This document shows positions 805 to 9,262 of a DNA stretch of 10,419 bases, piece after piece. The translations under genes and the position numbers were made by a program. Under the pieces are notes generated by a model that worked only from the letters and a program-made list of their open reading frames with translations, was not told where the DNA came from and made no database searches. Positions within the stretch are counted from its first letter, which is position 1. Every line of letters begins with the position of its first letter. The DNA is taken from positions 36,166 through 46,584 of the forward strand of contig MHFL01000047.1 in NCBI GenBank assembly GCA_001804165.1, written 5' to 3'. This DNA is from Omnitrophica bacterium RIFCSPLOWO2_01_FULL_45_10 (GTDB lineage Bacteria > Omnitrophota > Gorgyraeia > 2-01-FULL-45-10).

Positions 805-833
805 TTGACAAAAAATTTTTTTTGCGGTATAAT
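805..833 (+). promoter_or_regulatory. Consensus sigma70 promoter for the FMN-domain GltS-like gene
   Basis: TTGACA (805-810) and TATAAT (828-833) are both perfect hexamers with an optimal 17-bp spacer. The spacer is mostly an A-run followed by a T-run, which is likely curved. Predicted transcription start is about 839-841, giving a leader of about 100 nt before the ATG at 941. The strength of the promoter makes sense if expression is limited downstream by the leader terminator. Confidence 0.9.
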
Positions 834-837
834 TGCC

Positions 838-849
838 TAAAATTTAGGC
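838..849 (+). repeat. 12-nt motif TAAAATTTAGGC, copy 1, at predicted transcription start
   Basis: The same 12 bases recur at 2558-2569, again immediately 5' of the first hairpin of a leader. In this copy the motif is the right part of an inverted repeat GCCTAAA-A-TTTAGGC (835-849) that straddles the predicted start site. It could be an operator or simply the 5' edge of the conserved leader. Function is inferred. Confidence 0.5.
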
Positions 850-904
850 GCATTACAATGGCGTAGTGCGCATCTTTATAAATTGAAGACATGGACGTCC
901 TCAA
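848..904 (+). promoter_or_regulatory. Two-hairpin ANTAR-type antiterminator RNA, leader A
   Basis: Hairpin P1: 848-856 pairs with 863-871 (9 bp, one G-U) around the hexaloop AATGGC (857-862). Hairpin P2: 883-890 pairs with 897-904 (7 pairs, one A-C mismatch) around the hexaloop ATGGAC (891-896). Both loops have A1 and G4 and are closed by C-G. P2 takes up the whole 5' arm of the terminator at 895-915, so P2 and the terminator cannot form together. These are the defining features of RNAs bound by ANTAR-domain antiterminators such as EutV and NasR, where a regulator dimer stabilises P1-P2 and allows readthrough. Recognition is by structure and loop identity; binding by an ANTAR protein is inferred, and no such protein is encoded in this window. 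Confidence 0.75.
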
Positions 905-920
905 AGGGAGGACGTTTTTT
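895..920 (+). terminator. Intrinsic terminator in leader A (attenuator)
   Basis: A perfect 8-bp stem ACGTCCTC / GAGGACGT (895-902 with 908-915), a 5-nt loop AAAGG, and a run of six T (915-920) followed by ATTTT. It lies between the promoter and the ribosome binding site of the gene at 941, so it acts as an attenuator. It would also stop readthrough from the upstream glutamine synthetase gene. Confidence 0.9.
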
Positions 921-940: not shown

Positions 941-2512
941 ATGAGTTTTAGCAAGCCAAACGCGTCACAAGCAACTTTGACAAAGAATAGAATTTCGCCG
1001 TCACCTATATCGGGTATATGCGTAACCTGTTTAGATGGCTGTCCGGGTCCTTGCGAGGTGGGCAGGTCCGCCTTGCGCGGTAGGGAGGTACTATATCCCC
1101 AGCCGTTTGGTAAAGTGATTTCCGGCTCAGAGAAGGATTACCCGGTAGATTTATCACATTTTAACATTTCCGGTACCTGCGTTGGCGCTGTCGGTATTGA
1201 GGCGGATTCGGACAAGGCGACATTTCCTAACGTGAATATTTCAACAGCGGTTGGTTCTAAAGAGAAGATAAAATTAAAAGTCCCATTCTTCACAGGCGCT
1301 CTGGGCTCAACTGAAATAGCGCGAATCAACTGGGAACCTACGGCTATCGGCGCCGCAATCTGCGGCACTATTTTGGTCATAGGGGAGAATGTCTGCGGCA
1401 TGGACCATAATGCTGAGATAAAAAAAGGCAAGATAGTCAAATCTCCTGAGATGGAACGCCGAATTAAAATATTCAAAGATTGGTACGATGGATATGGGAC
1501 GGTGCTGGTGCAACTCAATGTTGAAGACACCCGCCTGGGAGTGGCTGAATACGTAATAGACAAACTGGAAGTGGATACGATCGAACTTAAGTGGGGTCAG
1601 GGAGCCAAGGACATTGGAGGTGAGGTAAAACTGCCTTCTTTGGAGCGCGCGTTGGAATTGAAGAAACGGGGATATCTTGTCATGCCTGATCCGGAGGACC
1701 CTATCGTGCAGGCGGCGTTTAATAATGGGGATTTCAAGGAATTTGAAAGGCACTCACGGCTTGGCATGGTGGACGAGGAGGGTTTCTACAAAGCGGCCCA
1801 GCGCTTGAGAAAATTAGGCGCAAAACACGTTACATTAAAGACAGGCGCTTATAGGCCGGCCGATCTTGCTCGAGCGGTTAAATTTTCGAGCGAGGCAAAG
1901 ATAGACCTTCTTACGGTGGACGGCGCCGGCGGCGGTACCGGAATGAGCCCATGGAGAATGATGAACGAGTGGGGAATACCTACGGTGCAGATAGAGTGCC
2001 TCCTGTACAGATATCTCAATGTGTTGTCTAAGAAGAAAAAATTCATCCCGGACTGCGCGATAGCGGGAGGGTTCTCTCTGGAAGACCATATATTCAAGGG
2101 ACTGGCGCTGGCCGCTCCATATATTAAGGCCATATGCCTGGGCAGGGCAACCATGACGGCCGCGATGGTCGGAAAAACCATAGGCGAGATGGTCAAACAC
2201 AGAAAACTCACCCCTGAACTTGAGAAATACGGCTATGATATCGAACAGATTTTCGTTGGCGCGGCTCAATTGAAGGCAAAGTACGGCAAGGATTATGAGA
2301 AAATACCGGCAGGCGCCATAGGTCTTTACAACTATTACGATAGACTATCCCTTGGATTAAAACAGCTTATGGCAGGCAATAGAAAATTTAGCTTGAAGCA
2401 CATTTCCCGCGATGATCTCATCGCGCTCACGCCGGAGGCGGCGGCGATATCGGGCCTTCCGTATGTAATGGATAAAGATCGGGATGATGTCAATAAAATC
2501 TTAAATTCGTAA
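941..2512 (+). CDS. Stand-alone FMN-binding glutamate-synthase-like protein (GltS domain only)
   Basis: This 523-residue protein consists mainly of the FMN-binding (alpha/beta)8-barrel synthase domain of glutamate synthase (Glu_synthase family). The match is seen in TGALGSTEIAR, GQGAKDIGG, and the phosphate-binding loop DGAGGGTGMSP at residues 327-337, the counterpart of SGGDGGTGASP in the GltB encoded downstream. It has no glutaminase (GATase) domain, no GXGXG domain and no CHLNxC iron-sulfur motif. Near the N-terminus Cys27, Cys30, Cys34 and Cys38 form a CX2CX3CX3C motif that could bind an Fe-S cluster. The start is set by AAGGAGG at 930-936, four bases before the ATG. Proteins of this kind occur in archaea and many bacteria and are often annotated as FMN-binding glutamate synthase family; the true reaction is generally unproven. 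Placement between two GS genes, behind a regulated leader, suggests a role in glutamine/glutamate metabolism. With no glutaminase domain, it would need ammonia from a partner or act on another substrate. Confidence 0.9.
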   Translation: MSFSKPNASQATLTKNRISPSPISGICVTCLDGCPGPCEVGRSALRGREVLYPQPFGKVISGSEKDYPVDLSHFNISGTCVGAVGIEADSDKATFPNVNISTAVGSKEKIKLKVPFFTGALGSTEIARINWEPTAIGAAICGTILVIGENVCGMDHNAEIKKGKIVKSPEMERRIKIFKDWYDGYGTVLVQLNVEDTRLGVAEYVIDKLEVDTIELKWGQGAKDIGGEVKLPSLERALELKKRGYLVMPDPEDPIVQAAFNNGDFKEFERHSRLGMVDEEGFYKAAQRLRKLGAKHVTLKTGAYRPADLARAVKFSSEAKIDLLTVDGAGGGTGMSPWRMMNEWGIPTVQIECLLYRYLNVLSKKKKFIPDCAIAGGFSLEDHIFKGLALAAPYIKAICLGRATMTAAMVGKTIGEMVKHRKLTPELEKYGYDIEQIFVGAAQLKAKYGKDYEKIPAGAIGLYNYYDRLSLGLKQLMAGNRKFSLKHISRDDLIALTPEAAAISGLPYVMDKDRDDVNKILNS

Positions 2513-2557
2513 CAGGGGTTACCAAAATCGGGTGATTTCTACTTGTACTATTGTAGG

Positions 2558-2569
2558 TAAAATTTAGGC
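2558..2569 (+). repeat. 12-nt motif TAAAATTTAGGC, copy 2
   Basis: Identical to 838-849 and placed the same way, overlapping the 5' foot of hairpin P1. Here the left flank (GTAGG) does not complete the inverted repeat seen in copy 1. A looser palindrome, TGCCAAATTAGGCA, follows at 2579-2592. The part TAAAAT resembles a -10 hexamer, but it is too close to P1 and has no usable -35. Confidence 0.45.
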
Positions 2570-2614
2570 ACATAGTGGTGCCAAATTAGGCAAAAGTAAA
2601 GAACACAGACGTTC
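2567..2614 (+). promoter_or_regulatory. Two-hairpin ANTAR-type antiterminator RNA, leader B
   Basis: Hairpin P1: GGCAC (2567-2571) pairs with GTGCC (2578-2582) around the hexaloop ATAGTG (2572-2577). Hairpin P2: GAAC (2601-2604) pairs with GTTC (2611-2614) around the hexaloop ACAGAC (2605-2610). As in leader A, both loops have A1 and G4 and a closing C-G pair, and P2 overlaps the 5' arm of the following terminator (from 2609). The P2 stem is short (4 bp), so on its own it would be marginal; the match to leader A is what makes it credible. It stands before a glutamine synthetase gene, in keeping with the nitrogen-related targets known for ANTAR RNAs. No clear promoter precedes it, so transcription may come from the gene at 941 or from a weak, activator-dependent promoter. 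Confidence 0.68.
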
Positions 2615-2651
2615 AATTGGTCAATTGTCATGGCCGGTTGGACGTTTTTTT
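2609..2651 (+). terminator. Intrinsic terminator in leader B (attenuator)
   Basis: The 5' arm 2609-2623 pairs with 2631-2645 over 15 positions including G-U wobbles, with a 7-nt loop ATTGTCA, followed directly by a run of seven T (2645-2651). It sits 13 bases ahead of the ribosome binding site of the second glutamine synthetase. Its 5' arm shares six bases (2609-2614) with hairpin P2, which makes the two structures mutually exclusive. Confidence 0.88.
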
Positions 2652-2676: not shown

Positions 2677-4179
2677 ATGGCAAAAAGAAAAGAGCAAAAA
2701 GAAGTGAGGACAAAAAACCCGCTTAAAAACGGGTCATTTGATGATAGCGCCGCAAAGGCCGTCGCGAAGATTATAGAAGACAATAAGATACAGATAGTTG
2801 ACCTTAAATTTAACGACTTACCGGGATTATGGCAGCATTTTTCAATCCCGGCATCGGAATTGCAGGAGATGGATGATATCATGAGGTCGATCTGGGTGGA
2901 CGGAATAGGTTTTGACGGCTCGTCGATACGTGGATTCCAGAAGATACAGGAATCGGATATGATACTGATACCCGATCCATCGACAGCGATAGTTGATCCG
3001 GTCTGCGAAGTTCCCACATTGAGTCTAATCTGTGATATCTATGATCCTCTTACGCGAAAACCATACACACGCGACCCAAGGTACATAGCGAAAAAATCGG
3101 AACAATATCTCAAAAATTCAGGGATCGCGGATGACATATACTTTGGCCCTGAAGCCGAATTCTTCCTATTCAACGACGTCCGTTTCGATCAGACTGAAAA
3201 CGCCGGTTACTATTTTCTTGATTCTATCGAGGCGGACTGGAACACAGGCAGAGTTGAGAATCCCAACTTAGGTTATAAGATACGCTTTAAAGAGGGTTAT
3301 TTCCCCGTTCCACCGCACGATTCCTTACAGGATTTGAGATCGAGGATCATCATAAAGATGAAAGAGGCGGGCATAAACGTTGAGGTTCACCACCACGAAG
3401 TCGCCACCGCGGGCCAATGCGAAATCGACATGAAGTTCGATAAACTGACGAAGATGGGAGACAGCCTTTTGCTGTACAAGTACATAATAAAAAATATGGC
3501 GAAAAAGAACAACATGGTCGCCACATTCATGCCGAAGCCGCTTTTCGCGGATAACGGCTCAGGCATGCATTGCCATCAGAGTTTATGGAAGAACGGTAAA
3601 AATCTATTTTTCGATAAAAATGGCTACGCGCTTTTGAGCCAAACGGCTAAATATTATATAGGAGGGCTATTAAAGCACGCGAATAGTCTCATGGCATTTT
3701 GCGCGCCGACAACCAACTCCTATAAGAGGCTCGTGCCGGGATATGAGGCGCCTGTAAATCTGGTATATTCTCAGCGCAATCGATCCGCGGCCGTTAGAAT
3801 ACCTATGTACACGGATAACCCTAAGTCGAAGAGAATAGAGTTTCGTCCTCCGGATCCATCGTGCAACGCGTATCTTGCCTTTAGCGCCATGCTCATGGCG
3901 GGATTGGATGGGATACAGAAAAAGATAGATCCAGGCGAACCGATGGATAAAGACCTATTCGAACTGAGCGATGAAGAACTCACGATGATACCCACTGTTC
4001 CGGCCTCGCTTCGAAGGGCTATCGACGCGCTGGAAGCGGATCAGGAATACCTTCTGAAGGGCGGCGTATTTACTCAGGATGTCATCGATATCTGGCTCGA
4101 ATATAAGCGCAAAAAAGAAATAGACGCGGTTAGGATGAGGCCCCATCCTTATGAGTTTTACCTTTATTTCGATATTTAA
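2677..4179 (+). CDS. glnA: Type I glutamine synthetase, GSI-beta-like, with Phe at the adenylylation site
   Basis: A complete 500-residue ATP-dependent glutamine synthetase. The start is ATG 2677, set by AAGGAGG at 2665-2671; an upstream in-frame GTG at 2617 lies inside the terminator stem and is not used. Active-site residues are in place: Asp80 (FDGSS), Glu159 and Glu161 (EAEFF), Glu241 (HHHEV), Glu249 (QCE), His298 (GSGMHCH), Glu357 (GYEAP) and the Arg residues of NRSAAVR and KRIEFR. The C-terminal half resembles E. coli GlnA (KGGVFTQD, VRMRPHPYEF). At the position of E. coli Tyr397 (NLYDLPPEE) this protein reads DLFELSDEE, with Phe428, so covalent adenylylation cannot occur there. A Lys-rich N-terminal extension of about 25 residues precedes the usual start of the fold. 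It follows a leader with an antitermination-type switch, suggesting control at the RNA level. It belongs to a different subtype from the GS at 1-792. Confidence 0.97.
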   Translation: MAKRKEQKEVRTKNPLKNGSFDDSAAKAVAKIIEDNKIQIVDLKFNDLPGLWQHFSIPASELQEMDDIMRSIWVDGIGFDGSSIRGFQKIQESDMILIPDPSTAIVDPVCEVPTLSLICDIYDPLTRKPYTRDPRYIAKKSEQYLKNSGIADDIYFGPEAEFFLFNDVRFDQTENAGYYFLDSIEADWNTGRVENPNLGYKIRFKEGYFPVPPHDSLQDLRSRIIIKMKEAGINVEVHHHEVATAGQCEIDMKFDKLTKMGDSLLLYKYIIKNMAKKNNMVATFMPKPLFADNGSGMHCHQSLWKNGKNLFFDKNGYALLSQTAKYYIGGLLKHANSLMAFCAPTTNSYKRLVPGYEAPVNLVYSQRNRSAAVRIPMYTDNPKSKRIEFRPPDPSCNAYLAFSAMLMAGLDGIQKKIDPGEPMDKDLFELSDEELTMIPTVPASLRRAIDALEADQEYLLKGGVFTQDVIDIWLEYKRKKEIDAVRMRPHPYEFYLYFDI

Positions 4180-4189
4180 TTGACTTATC

Positions 4190-4231
4190 CACTCATAGTA
4201 GCCCAGGCTTAAGCCTGGGCTACTATGAGTG
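4190..4231 (+). repeat. Perfect 42-nt palindrome, REP-like or terminator hairpin
   Basis: Bases 4190-4210 are the exact reverse complement of 4211-4231 (21 bp, no spacer, centre TTAA). It begins 10 bases after the second GS stop. No T-run follows at once; the nearest is seven T at 4251-4257, about 19 bases further. It therefore does not look like a classic intrinsic terminator, although a hairpin this strong could still end transcription or protect the 3' end of the mRNA. Its core, built on AGCCCAGGCTTAAGCCTGGG, resembles dispersed palindromic repeats of some environmental genomes (from memory, not checked). Confidence 0.7.
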
Positions 4232-4293
4232 TCGCTAACCCGGCGGCGTGTTTTTTTGTTTGAGTCTGCCTATATTTTGTGCAAAAATTGAAA

Positions 4294-4674
4294 ATGACAA
4301 ACATTTCGATCGCTAAAGACGAGAAGAAGTTGAAAGAGATGCTCATCCAACTATTACGGCAGGAAGGATATGCTGTTTCGGCCGAGACGGGTGTTCGCGG
4401 AGACTTCATCCGGGTTACAAGTAGGGAGTCGGTAGATATTGATTCTTTGAAAGAAAAAGTGATAAAATTAGAGGATGCGTTATACTCTGAGAAGAAGGGC
4501 CTAGTTTACAAATCTATTTTAGATACTATTGAAAAGCCGATGATTGAGCACATATTGGAGCGAACTGAAGGCAACCAACTGAAAGCGGCCGGAATATTGG
4601 GCATAAATCGAAATACGATACGTGTGAAGATTAAGAGATTAGGGATCGATCCGAAAGTCTACAGGAATAAATAA
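4294..4674 (+). CDS. Small Fis-like DNA-binding protein
   Basis: A 126-residue protein whose C-terminal 45 residues or so (from PMIEHILE to the end) form a Fis-type helix-turn-helix, as in Fis and at the C-terminus of NtrC: RTEGNQLKAAGILGINRNT followed by a basic helix IRVKIKRLG. Fis itself carries GNQTRAALMMGINRGT at the equivalent place. The preceding segment (LVYKSILDTIEKP) also resembles Fis. The N-terminal half is charged and helical and I do not recognise it; no sigma54 AAA+ domain is present, so this is not an NtrC. A GTG at 4279 would add five residues; neither start has a good ribosome binding site, and I prefer the ATG. The stop is 7 bp before gltB, so the two are probably co-transcribed with gltD. 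It may regulate this locus by binding DNA, but the target is not evident. Confidence 0.85.
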   Translation: MTNISIAKDEKKLKEMLIQLLRQEGYAVSAETGVRGDFIRVTSRESVDIDSLKEKVIKLEDALYSEKKGLVYKSILDTIEKPMIEHILERTEGNQLKAAGILGINRNTIRVKIKRLGIDPKVYRNK

Positions 4675-7600: not shown

Positions 7601-9262
7601 ATCGCCCAAGGGGCAAAGCCGGGCGAGGGGGGCCAGCTGCCGGGTCATAAGGTTAGCGCCGTAATCGCCCGAACACGCTATACAACGCCCGGCGTAACCC
7701 TAATATCGCCTCCGCCGCATCACGACATTTATTCCATTGAGGACCTCGCGCAGTTGATATTCGATCTAAAAAACACAAACCCCGAGGCGCGCGTCAGCGT
7801 AAAACTCGTATCAGAGATAGGCGTTGGAACAATAGCGATGGGCGTGGCCAAGGGACATGCGGACATGATATTGATATCCGGCGGAGACGGAGGAACGGGC
7901 GCGTCACCATTAAGTTCGATAAGGCATGCGGGGCTGCCCTGGGAATTGGGCTTATCGGAAACACATCAGATTCTCATCCTGAACAACTTGAGGTCGAGGG
8001 TCCGTTTACAGACCGACGGCCAGATGAGGACCGGCAGGGACGTGGCCATAGCGGCGCTTTTGGGCGCGGAGGAATTCGGATTTTCCACGGCGGTCCTAAT
8101 CGCGCTCGGATGCGTAATGTTGAGGCATTGCCACCTGAACAACTGCTCTCTCGGCGTGGCCACACAGGATGAAATATTGGAAAAGAGATTCACCGGTAGG
8201 CTTGAATATGTTATGAACTATTTTAAATTTGTGGCGCAGGAATTACGCGAGATCATGGCAAGTTTAGGTTTCACGACTGTCGATGAGATGATTGGCAGGA
8301 CCGACCTTTTAGAAATGAATACTGACATACTACCATGGAAGGCGCGGGGGATAGATTATTCAAAAATCCTATACAGGCCTGATGTGCCGAAAACCGTCGG
8401 GAGATACTGTAAGATCAAGCAGGGGCACGCAATCGATAAGGTTTTAGACCTCAAGTTGATAGAATTGGCGAAAGGCGCGTTGGAGAAGGGCTCGGCCGTA
8501 AAGAAAGAGCTGACCATAAACAACACCAATAGGACAACCGGTGCGATGTTAAGCGGAGCTATCTGTAAAAAATATGGGGAAGAGGGTCTGCCGGAAGGCA
8601 CTATCCATTTTAAGTTTAAAGGAGCTGCCGGCCAAAGTTTTGGGGCATGGCTCGGACGCGGCGTCACGCTCGAATTGGAAGGCATGTCTAATGACTATGT
8701 AGGAAAAGGCATCTCGGGAGGAAAGATAATAATATATCCGGACAAAAGGGCGTCTTTTAAACCCGACGAAAATATAATCATTGGAAATACCGCCTTCTAT
8801 GGCGCGATAAATGGCGAGGCATACATAGCAGGGGTAGCGGGCGAAAGATTCTGTATAAGAAACTCAGGACTTTATGCTGTGGTTGAAGGAGTTGGCGATC
8901 ACGGCTGTGAGTACATGACGGGTGGAAGGGTGGTTATTTTAGGCGGGACAGGAAGAAACTTTGGCGCGGGCATGTCGGGCGGAATCGCTTATGTCTGGGA
9001 TAGGGGTGGCAAATTCAAGTCGAGATGCAATATGGCGATGGTTGAATTAGAGAACTTGAATGAAAGCGATTTCGAAACGATTAAAAATATGCTCAGCGAT
9101 CATTATCGCCACACTAAAAGCGGCCTTGCAAAAGAAGTTTTAGATGATTTCAAGAGCAAAATGAGGGAATTTATAAAAGTAATGCCGATAGAGTATAAGC
9201 GCATTTTAGAAGGCGAGGCCTTGGAAAAGAAGTTGGAGGTCTCAGAGGTATCTGATGGGTGA
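4682..9262 (+). CDS. gltB: Glutamate synthase (NADPH-type) large subunit
   Basis: Complete 1526-residue GltB, the subunit that hydrolyses glutamine and passes the ammonia through a tunnel to 2-oxoglutarate on FMN. Domains in order: a 21-residue propeptide, then the class II glutaminase domain with nucleophile Cys22 (RGSCGVGF), Arg235 (HARYST), HNGE at 255-258 and DRNGLR at 372-377; the central domain; the FMN barrel with GAMSFGS near 899-905 and SGGDGGTG at 1066-1073; the 3Fe-4S ligands Cys1144, Cys1150 and Cys1155 (CX5CX4C, in HCHLNNCSLGV); and the C-terminal GXGXG beta-helix with its repeated glycine motifs up to about 1460. All key residues are present. A Lys/Arg/Gly-rich linker (about 457-476) separates the glutaminase and central domains and may be longer than usual. 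No ribosome binding site is visible before the ATG, so translation may be coupled to the Fis-like gene 7 bp upstream. It overlaps gltD by 8 bp. Confidence 0.98.
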   Translation: MDKKQMLEKRGLYDSRYERGSCGVGFVCDIKGSRSNKTIHLGLEALKRLLHRGATGSDPKTGDGAGILIQTPHDFFKKVSEGIKIDLPDFGAYGTGLVFLPKDGKDRRFCKDAFARIIKDEGQTILGWRDVPVDNSDIGNTARETEPVIEQPFISRSPALKTQEDFERRLYVIRKRVENIMRSSKLKEKSYFYITNISSRTFSYKGLLMSTQLEKFFIDLKDERLTSSLCLMHARYSTNTFPTWDLAQPFRFLAHNGEINTLRGNINWMKARERLLKSALLSPGDIKNILPIIVPGGSDSAIIDNVFELLVLAGRSLPHAMMMLIPAAWEQDKIMDKKLKSFYQYHACFMEPWDGPAAIAFTDGTRIGASLDRNGLRPARYIITKDDFVVMASEVGVLDIEPSNIARSGRLEPGKLFFVDPEEGRIVHDEEIKDTVSRQGPYHLWVKENLTELGDVKERSSSRKGPGHKQGREGKKDEALSLLKAFGYTREDLKFIMKPMVLEGYEPTGSMGNDTPHAVLSVRPQLLYNYFKQLFAQVTNPAIDPIREELVMSLYSFVGAQKNILDQTPRHCKKLLVREPVLTNKDLEKIRGIKEKGFKAKTLSLLFSVKDGKRNDEANFIRTLDAICRQAESAIIDGHSFIILSDRGIDAEHCALPSLVACGAVHHHLVRKALRTQIGIIVESGEPREVHHFALLFGYGADCVNPYLAYEAVERLVIEGEVNMGLISSLKNYHKAVNKGILKILSKMGISTLQSYRGAQIFEALGLKEAVIERCFTGTVSRIGGAGFKEISRETILRHREAYPKKEVSASYLDTGGIYQWKLDGEFHLWNPESIASLQDAVRKDDYNIYKKKFSILINEQSKNPTTLRGLLKFKRTKPISIDEVEPIESIFKRFATGAMSFGSISRACHETIAKAMNRLGARSNSGEGGEDPVRFVPLPNGDSVSSAVKQVASGRFGVTTNYLVNAKELQIKIAQGAKPGEGGQLPGHKVSAVIARTRYTTPGVTLISPPPHHDIYSIEDLAQLIFDLKNTNPEARVSVKLVSEIGVGTIAMGVAKGHADMILISGGDGGTGASPLSSIRHAGLPWELGLSETHQILILNNLRSRVRLQTDGQMRTGRDVAIAALLGAEEFGFSTAVLIALGCVMLRHCHLNNCSLGVATQDEILEKRFTGRLEYVMNYFKFVAQELREIMASLGFTTVDEMIGRTDLLEMNTDILPWKARGIDYSKILYRPDVPKTVGRYCKIKQGHAIDKVLDLKLIELAKGALEKGSAVKKELTINNTNRTTGAMLSGAICKKYGEEGLPEGTIHFKFKGAAGQSFGAWLGRGVTLELEGMSNDYVGKGISGGKIIIYPDKRASFKPDENIIIGNTAFYGAINGEAYIAGVAGERFCIRNSGLYAVVEGVGDHGCEYMTGGRVVILGGTGRNFGAGMSGGIAYVWDRGGKFKSRCNMAMVELENLNESDFETIKNMLSDHYRHTKSGLAKEVLDDFKSKMREFIKVMPIEYKRILEGEALEKKLEVSEVSDG

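Follow-up and report, generated by a model that had tools for sequence, protein, structure and literature searches.

The presence of a gene for a glutamate synthase-like protein (gltS) in the genome of Omnitrophica bacterium RIFCSPLOWO2_01_FULL_45_10 raises the question of how its transcription is governed, i.e. what is encoded in the interval between the end of the preceding gene glnA1 (792) and the gltS start codon (ATG at 941). All positions given without further specification refer to the window, that is, the whole stretch of 10,419 nucleotides that was analysed. The interval can be read as an ANTAR-target leader in which transcription is terminated by default and in which gltS, like the genes behind several sister leaders, is reached by antitermination that depends on a GAF-ANTAR protein; we assign this reading a probability of about 0.9. 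A preliminary description of the locus had called gltS an orphan, a label that can not be maintained, because the gene resides in a nitrogen cluster with the order hcp / porin-amt-glnK / amt-glnK / glnA1 / gltS / glnA2 / fis / gltB / gltD. The GltS protein itself carries an N-terminal CxxCxxxCxxxC motif (C27, C30, C34, C38), which is invariant in 17 aligned proteins and resembles an iron-sulfur site.

The leader was said to comprise a perfect sigma70 promoter, a hairpin P1 with hexaloop AATGGC, a hairpin P2 with hexaloop ATGGAC, a terminator with a T-run whose 5' arm lies inside P2 and finally a ribosome binding site, and all of these were found in place (Table 1). The P2 stem is composed of an inner GAC/GTC and an outer TTGA/TCAA part, i.e. 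three and four pairs, with one A.C mismatch (887/900), so that both stems contain at least three pairs. In the terminator, 893-902 pairs with 908-917 and the 5' arm consists of P2 loop positions 3-6 and the P2 3' arm; an RBS-like GGAGG (~931-935) stands in front of the gltS start. When the RNA was folded without the terminator 3' arm (843-905), P1 and P2 were formed (z -2.95, with 3 of 200 shuffles equally stable); when the full leader was folded (843-925), P1 and the terminator were formed and P2 was dissolved (z -6.58, 0 of 200 shuffles). This pair of mutually exclusive computed folds is the published ANTAR arrangement, where the definition of an ANTAR-target RNA was taken from PMC3369931, in whose search model the linker length is variable. 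A scan of the window against Rfam yielded no family at gathering score, glutamine riboswitches included; the weak matches of STnc300 and DUF3800-I that span the gltS leader are far below their cut-offs and were rejected as resemblances to a terminator. A palindrome (TGCCTAAA-n-TTAGGCA) is located at 835-849 and recurs near many leaders of relatives.

Table 1. Positions in the window of the two leaders and of the genes associated with them
Feature	Positions	Strand	Details	Basis
Sigma70-type promoter of gltS leader	805..833	+	TTGACA 805-810, 17-bp spacer, TATAAT 828-833	sequence
P1 hairpin of gltS leader	848..871	+	nine pairs; hexaloop AATGGC 857-862 (A1, G4)	sequence, folding, model matches
P2 hairpin (antiterminator) of gltS leader	883..904	+	hexaloop ATGGAC 891-896 (A1, G4)	sequence, folding, model match
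Intrinsic terminator of gltS leader	893..920	+	exclusive with P2; T-run 915-920	sequence, folding
gltS, stand-alone FMN-domain glutamate synthase-like protein	941..2512	+	523 aa; Glu_synthase match on residues 277-405 only	
P1 of second leader	2567..2582	+	GGCAC-ATAGTG-GTGCC	sequence, folding
P2 of second leader	2601..2614	+	GAAC-ACAGAC-GTTC	sequence, folding
Terminator of second leader	2607..2651	+	T-run; takes up P2	sequence, folding
glnA2, type I glutamine synthetase, behind second leader	2677..4179	+	start chosen by RBS; ORF list has an upstream TTG at 2617	
Fis-like small regulator	4279..4674	+		

A second leader, absent from the preliminary description, precedes glnA2 (2567-2651). Its P1 and P2 contain five and four pairs, both six-base loops have A1 and G4, and the P2 and terminator folds are again exclusive. 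The linker between P1 and P2, counted on the sequence, is 11 nt in the gltS leader and 18 nt in the glnA2 leader. The latter exceeds the range of the eut leaders, where the spacing is 5-12 nt and 14 nt already hurts induction according to PMC3369931, and this spacing, together with the A.C mismatch in P2 of the gltS leader, speaks against the ANTAR reading. No leader was found before glnA1 or amt2 of the window genome, either by eye or with the R1 covariance model described below.

Covariance models were used to search the assembly (1.43 Mb, 87% complete). In the case of model R1, built from 12 seeds that include both window leaders, these two came first and were followed by two non-seed places, namely the leader of porin-amt-glnK (26.0 bits, E 0.009) and that of hcp (21.3 bits, E 0.109); no other place in the assembly scores above 16.6 bits. 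In the case of model R2, whose 10 seeds all stem from other genomes, the gltS leader ranked first (29.4 bits, E=0.003), so that the search proposed earlier for this locus recovers it without any seed from the window. It was followed by the amt leader (24.6 bits, E 0.034) and the hcp leader (21.1 bits, E 0.195), with the next match at 17.1 bits, and these top three lie on one contig within one nitrogen cluster of ~17 kb. The glnA2 leader obtained 17.6 bits with R2 and is not among the genome-wide R2 matches. The hcp and porin-amt leaders (L003 2619-2682 and 4150-4210) have the P1 loops AGCGAA and ATTGAA and the P2 loop GAAGGC, in which position 1 is a G and which thus departs from the A1/G4 rule; folded alone, their P2 adopts a four-base loop with a stability no better than that of shuffles. 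The nadE gene of this genome is flanked on either side by weak matches of at most 17.8 bits (L002 6377-6407 in front of it and 8069-8111 behind it).

An earlier search with a stem-score script, which proposed leaders at 9 of the 78 named gltS loci and overlooked imperfect stems, was superseded by these models. The loop rule was also examined without being imposed: among 97 upstream stretches with 102 terminators, 23 hexaloop hairpins overlapped a terminator 5' arm, and 9 of these had A1/G4, as compared to 1.7 expected from base composition (p 2e-5). The script allowed no mismatch and therefore did not pick the gltS leader of the window.

Conservation of the leader was assessed in 57 relatives, with gltS in 20 genomes and an ANTAR domain in 44. 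In 13 of the 20 gltS genomes, gltS or an ANTAR(-fis)-gltS operon is preceded by a match that reaches 20 bits or more (the window genome itself, G002, G006, G007, G022, G025, G027, G033, G038, G040, G047, G050 and G055), where five of the 13 are R1 seeds and G040 reaches 20.6 bits with R1 only. Three more have a weak match of 16.7-18.2 bits (G029, G036, G041), in two P2 alone was found by eye (G018, G056), and no leader was found in G021 (ANTAR present) and G045 (ANTAR not found). At the 78 named gltS loci with upstream DNA, R1 gave 38 matches. Half of these (19) fall, on the coding strand, into the 500 nt that precede gltS, a stretch that makes up 3.6% of the searched space; the 500 nt behind the gene hold 5, and the remaining 14 are located elsewhere. 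After removal of six seed loci the fraction within 500 nt before gltS was 12 of 29 (p 1e-10).

The resulting alignment (A5) holds 46 matches, 44 of them distinct, seeds included and with two putative leaders (L060:1323 and L167:765). The fraction of paired cells is 94.7% for P1 and 84.5% for P2, counts that lean towards the model since the alignment was fitted to it. The covariation score was 0.560, a value that none of 500 shuffled alignments attained (0.227 in these); sliding the alignment gave no score above 0.132. Eight of the ten pairs were changed on both sides, with 100 such cells versus 29 in shuffles, where the number of doubly changed pairs, taken alone, is not above that of shuffles (178 of 500). 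Of the 44 rows, 16-17 lack pairing at the two outer positions of the P2 stem. Six-base loops are present in 42 of 46 P1 hairpins (A1 in 38, G1 in 4, G4 in 41) and in 45 of 46 P2 hairpins (A1 in 40, G1 in 5, G4 in 45). When both loops have six bases (n=41), A1/G4 is found in both in 31 leaders, and A or G at position 1 combined with G4 in 40. A pair between loop positions 1 and 5 is possible in 11 of the 42 six-base loops of P1 and in none of the 45 of P2, and the linkers range from 2 to 24 nt. Of the expectation that related leaders would conserve both hairpins with invariant A1 and G4, the part concerning the hairpins and G4 thus stands (P1 and P2 covary, G4 is nearly fixed), whereas A1 is not strict and is sometimes replaced by G. 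The recurrent G1, the nearly fixed G4 and the lack of pairable positions 1 and 5 in P2 fit the proposal in PMC8934654 that the protein reads G4 and that position 1 only keeps the loop open.

These data bear on a first alternative, namely that the element is a constitutive attenuator or plain terminator with incidental hairpins, which ends read-through from glnA1 or fixes a low level of gltS. Terminators just behind genes are common and glnA1 ends at 792. Nevertheless, a promoter lies between glnA1 and the terminator, which makes the terminator a part of the gltS leader; covariation extends to P1 and to the 5' arm of P2, neither of which belongs to the terminator; and the same design is found before unrelated genes. 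We therefore consider this alternative very improbable.

The regulator that the ANTAR reading demands was sought in the same genome. One ANTAR domain was detected in the 87% complete assembly (E 2.9e-22), as the preliminary description had anticipated, in a gene of 239 aa from its ATG (C47:15604-16323) that encodes a GAF and an ANTAR domain. The regulator had been taken to be unlinked to gltS, and this was not borne out: the gene lies on the same contig ~21 kb upstream, and in 7 of the 20 genomes with gltS (G002, G006, G007, G025, G041, G050, G055) no more than 350 bp separate this gene from an ANTAR domain, while in two others (G029, G033) the distance is at most 3.3 kb. In five relatives a leader precedes an ANTAR-gltS or ANTAR-fis-gltS operon, and at named gltS loci of other phyla an ANTAR domain is present in 13 of 80. 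The named near relatives of the GAF-ANTAR protein belong to Candidatus Omnitrophota/Omnitrophica (81-86% identical). The structures 4akk and 1qo0 (NasR and AmiR) match its ANTAR domain in sequence. In an alignment with EutV, numbered by our own mapping and with the contact residues of the crystal structure as given in PMC8934654, 7 of 11 RNA-touching residues are identical; Tyr164 is replaced by Phe, and Arg168, Asn173 and Arg177 by Gln, Asp and Ser. The best solved relatives of the GAF domain include PtsP-type and other GAF domains. GAF domains of such type can sense glutamine or 2-oxoglutarate.

Given this inventory, we infer binding of the protein, the direction of its effect (activation) and its signal as follows. 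RNA polymerase would start near 840 and by default stop at the gltS terminator. At a low or otherwise signalled nitrogen status, perhaps perceived as glutamine or 2-oxoglutarate via the GAF domain, the GAF-ANTAR protein would bind the hexaloops as a dimer, P1 and then P2. P2 would thereby be held closed and its 3' arm kept from the terminator, and gltS would be transcribed. The sister leaders (glnA2, porin-amt-glnK, hcp) would respond to the same protein and form a small nitrogen regulon. Alternatively, an ANTAR protein may bind and act otherwise (on translation, or with several partner kinases), the leader being a repressor site. Some ANTAR RNAs lie close to a ribosome binding site according to PMC3369931, and GAF-ANTAR is a domain type for which, by its account, no characterised example existed as of 2012. 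In both window leaders, however, P2 overlaps the terminator and not the ribosome binding site, and we deem a repressor site just as improbable as a plain terminator.

Most of the genes that follow the leaders are related to nitrogen. Over the 57 relatives, R1 gave 28 matches in 19 genomes, with as first gene gltS (5), type I glnA (3), a type III glutamine synthetase (2), an amt operon (3), gdhA (2), carA (2), purF (1), nadE (1) or an FAD/NAD-binding partner of the glutamate synthase type (3). These nitrogen genes account for 22 of the 28; a NuoE-like gene (1) and a sigma-factor-like gene behind nadE (2) follow, and three matches have no gene assigned (L154, L157, L167). L139, L140 and L142, which are coding or weak, and L157, for which no gene was matched, were regarded as chance matches and discarded. 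The orthologue of the Fis-like gene of the window lies behind an ANTAR-type leader in three genomes of the class (L169, L174, L185), and the leader-associated genes thus include gltS, glnA, glnN, amt, gdhA, carA, purF, nadE and fis-gltB. The sigma-factor-like ORF behind nadE in the window genome (L002 8155-8691) corresponds to one with an ANTAR-type leader in two relatives (L148, L155).

At the level of the class, model R3, built from A5, gave matches in 82 of 292 genomes. The best 20 new loci, identified by tblastn to reference proteins, concern gdhA (5), gltS (3), carA (3), fis(-gltB) (3), amt (3), glnA (2) and a NuoE-like gene (1). An ANTAR domain was found in 210 of the 292 genomes, and the RNA is present in 76 of these versus 6 of the 82 others (p 2e-7), or in 62 of 193 versus 5 of 81 when the 18 seed genomes are removed (p 1e-6). 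Five of the six genomes with RNA and without a detected ANTAR gene are less than 90% complete (G074: 95%). These six genomes count against the ANTAR reading, as does the absence of an RNA match at E 0.01 in 134 of the 210 ANTAR-bearing genomes; misses are expected in this search, because filters were stricter and 20 candidates were scored per genome. A riboswitch or other metabolite-binding RNA (e.g. a glutamine riboswitch) that controls the terminator without a protein is the least probable of all readings, for, while the genes make and use glutamine and alternative folds are typical of riboswitches, Rfam gave no glutamine riboswitch among six matches with E up to 10, the conserved core is limited to two small hairpins and the presence of the RNA tracks that of the ANTAR gene.

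The preliminary description knew of no report for this gene type. PMC3369931, however, linked ANTAR RNAs in 2012 to glutamate synthase genes of Desulfotomaculum reducens, which may include this gltS type, described 13 ANTAR RNAs in the nitrogen regulon of D. acetoxidans and noted that many bacteria have such RNAs before P-II, amt and the synthase genes for glutamate, glutamine and arginine. The mechanism and the nitrogen theme are therefore known. The Desulfotomaculum leaders described there share with those of Omnitrophota the two hexaloop hairpins, the overlap of P2 with the terminator, the occurrence of several leaders per genome and the position before glutamate synthase, glutamine synthetase, amt and P-II genes; they belong to another phylum, and loop position 1 is sometimes G in Omnitrophota. 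In Desulfotomaculum copahuensis and Desulfocucumis palustris, the gltS locus likewise contains ANTAR domains as well as homologues of glnA next to gltS, but the model match lies behind gltS and not before it. The targets gdhA, carA, purF, nadE, hcp and fis-gltB are not named in what PMC3369931 says of the Desulfotomaculum systems. The eut leaders of Enterococcus faecalis, the targets of EutV, also have hexaloops with A1 and G4 and a P2 that is exclusive with the terminator (PMC3369931, PMC8934654), whereas EutV carries a receiver domain and works with a partner kinase where the Omnitrophota protein has a GAF domain, and the eut linkers span a narrower range than those found here. NasR/nas of Klebsiella and AmiR/ami of Pseudomonas have the ANTAR output domain and the nitrogen theme in common with this system (PMC3369931) and differ in sensor domains, in the restriction to single operons and in phylum. 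Among the openly accessible articles searched we found no report of such leaders in Omnitrophota and no paper that joins 'ANTAR domain' and 'Omnitroph'. What is new, within that literature, is the phylum, and furthermore the wider target set and the relaxed loop position 1.

Several such leaders probably allow a single sensor protein to turn on the genes of nitrogen assimilation. A sigma54 gene was not found in the 87% complete assembly and no NtrC scored over the curated cut-off in it, so that the ANTAR system becomes a candidate for the leading role in nitrogen control; for Omnitrophota as a whole, ANTAR leaders are probably one of the main controls of this kind. A more far-reaching view, which we regard as an even bet, is that in this lineage of Omnitrophota a single GAF-ANTAR protein acts as master regulator of nitrogen, a role otherwise held by NtrC/sigma54. 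By attenuation it would adjust the production of glutamine and glutamate (amt, glnA, glnN, gltS, gltB, gdhA) to their use by glutamine-consuming enzymes (carA, purF, nadE), its own gene often being part of the circuit. The leaders extend the ANTAR theme to enzymes that consume glutamine and, with their putative regulator, to proteins of GAF-ANTAR architecture, and an uncultivated phylum gains a concrete, testable form of nitrogen control in which a single sensor-antiterminator is paired with a defined group of leaders.

Two further sequence elements were observed in the cluster. Between glnA2 and the Fis-like gene lies an inverted repeat with arms of ~19 bp (4192-4229). Upstream of the glnA2, hcp and porin-amt leaders, a common element of the form GGTTACC(W)AAA ... 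TACTTGTACTRTTGTA is present (window 2517-2556; L003 2578-2620 and 4111-4150), which is a candidate operator, perhaps of the Fis-like protein. A similar GTTACC ... TACTTGTA precedes several leaders in relatives (L147, L153, L154, L161, L174, L179, L182, L184 and L185).
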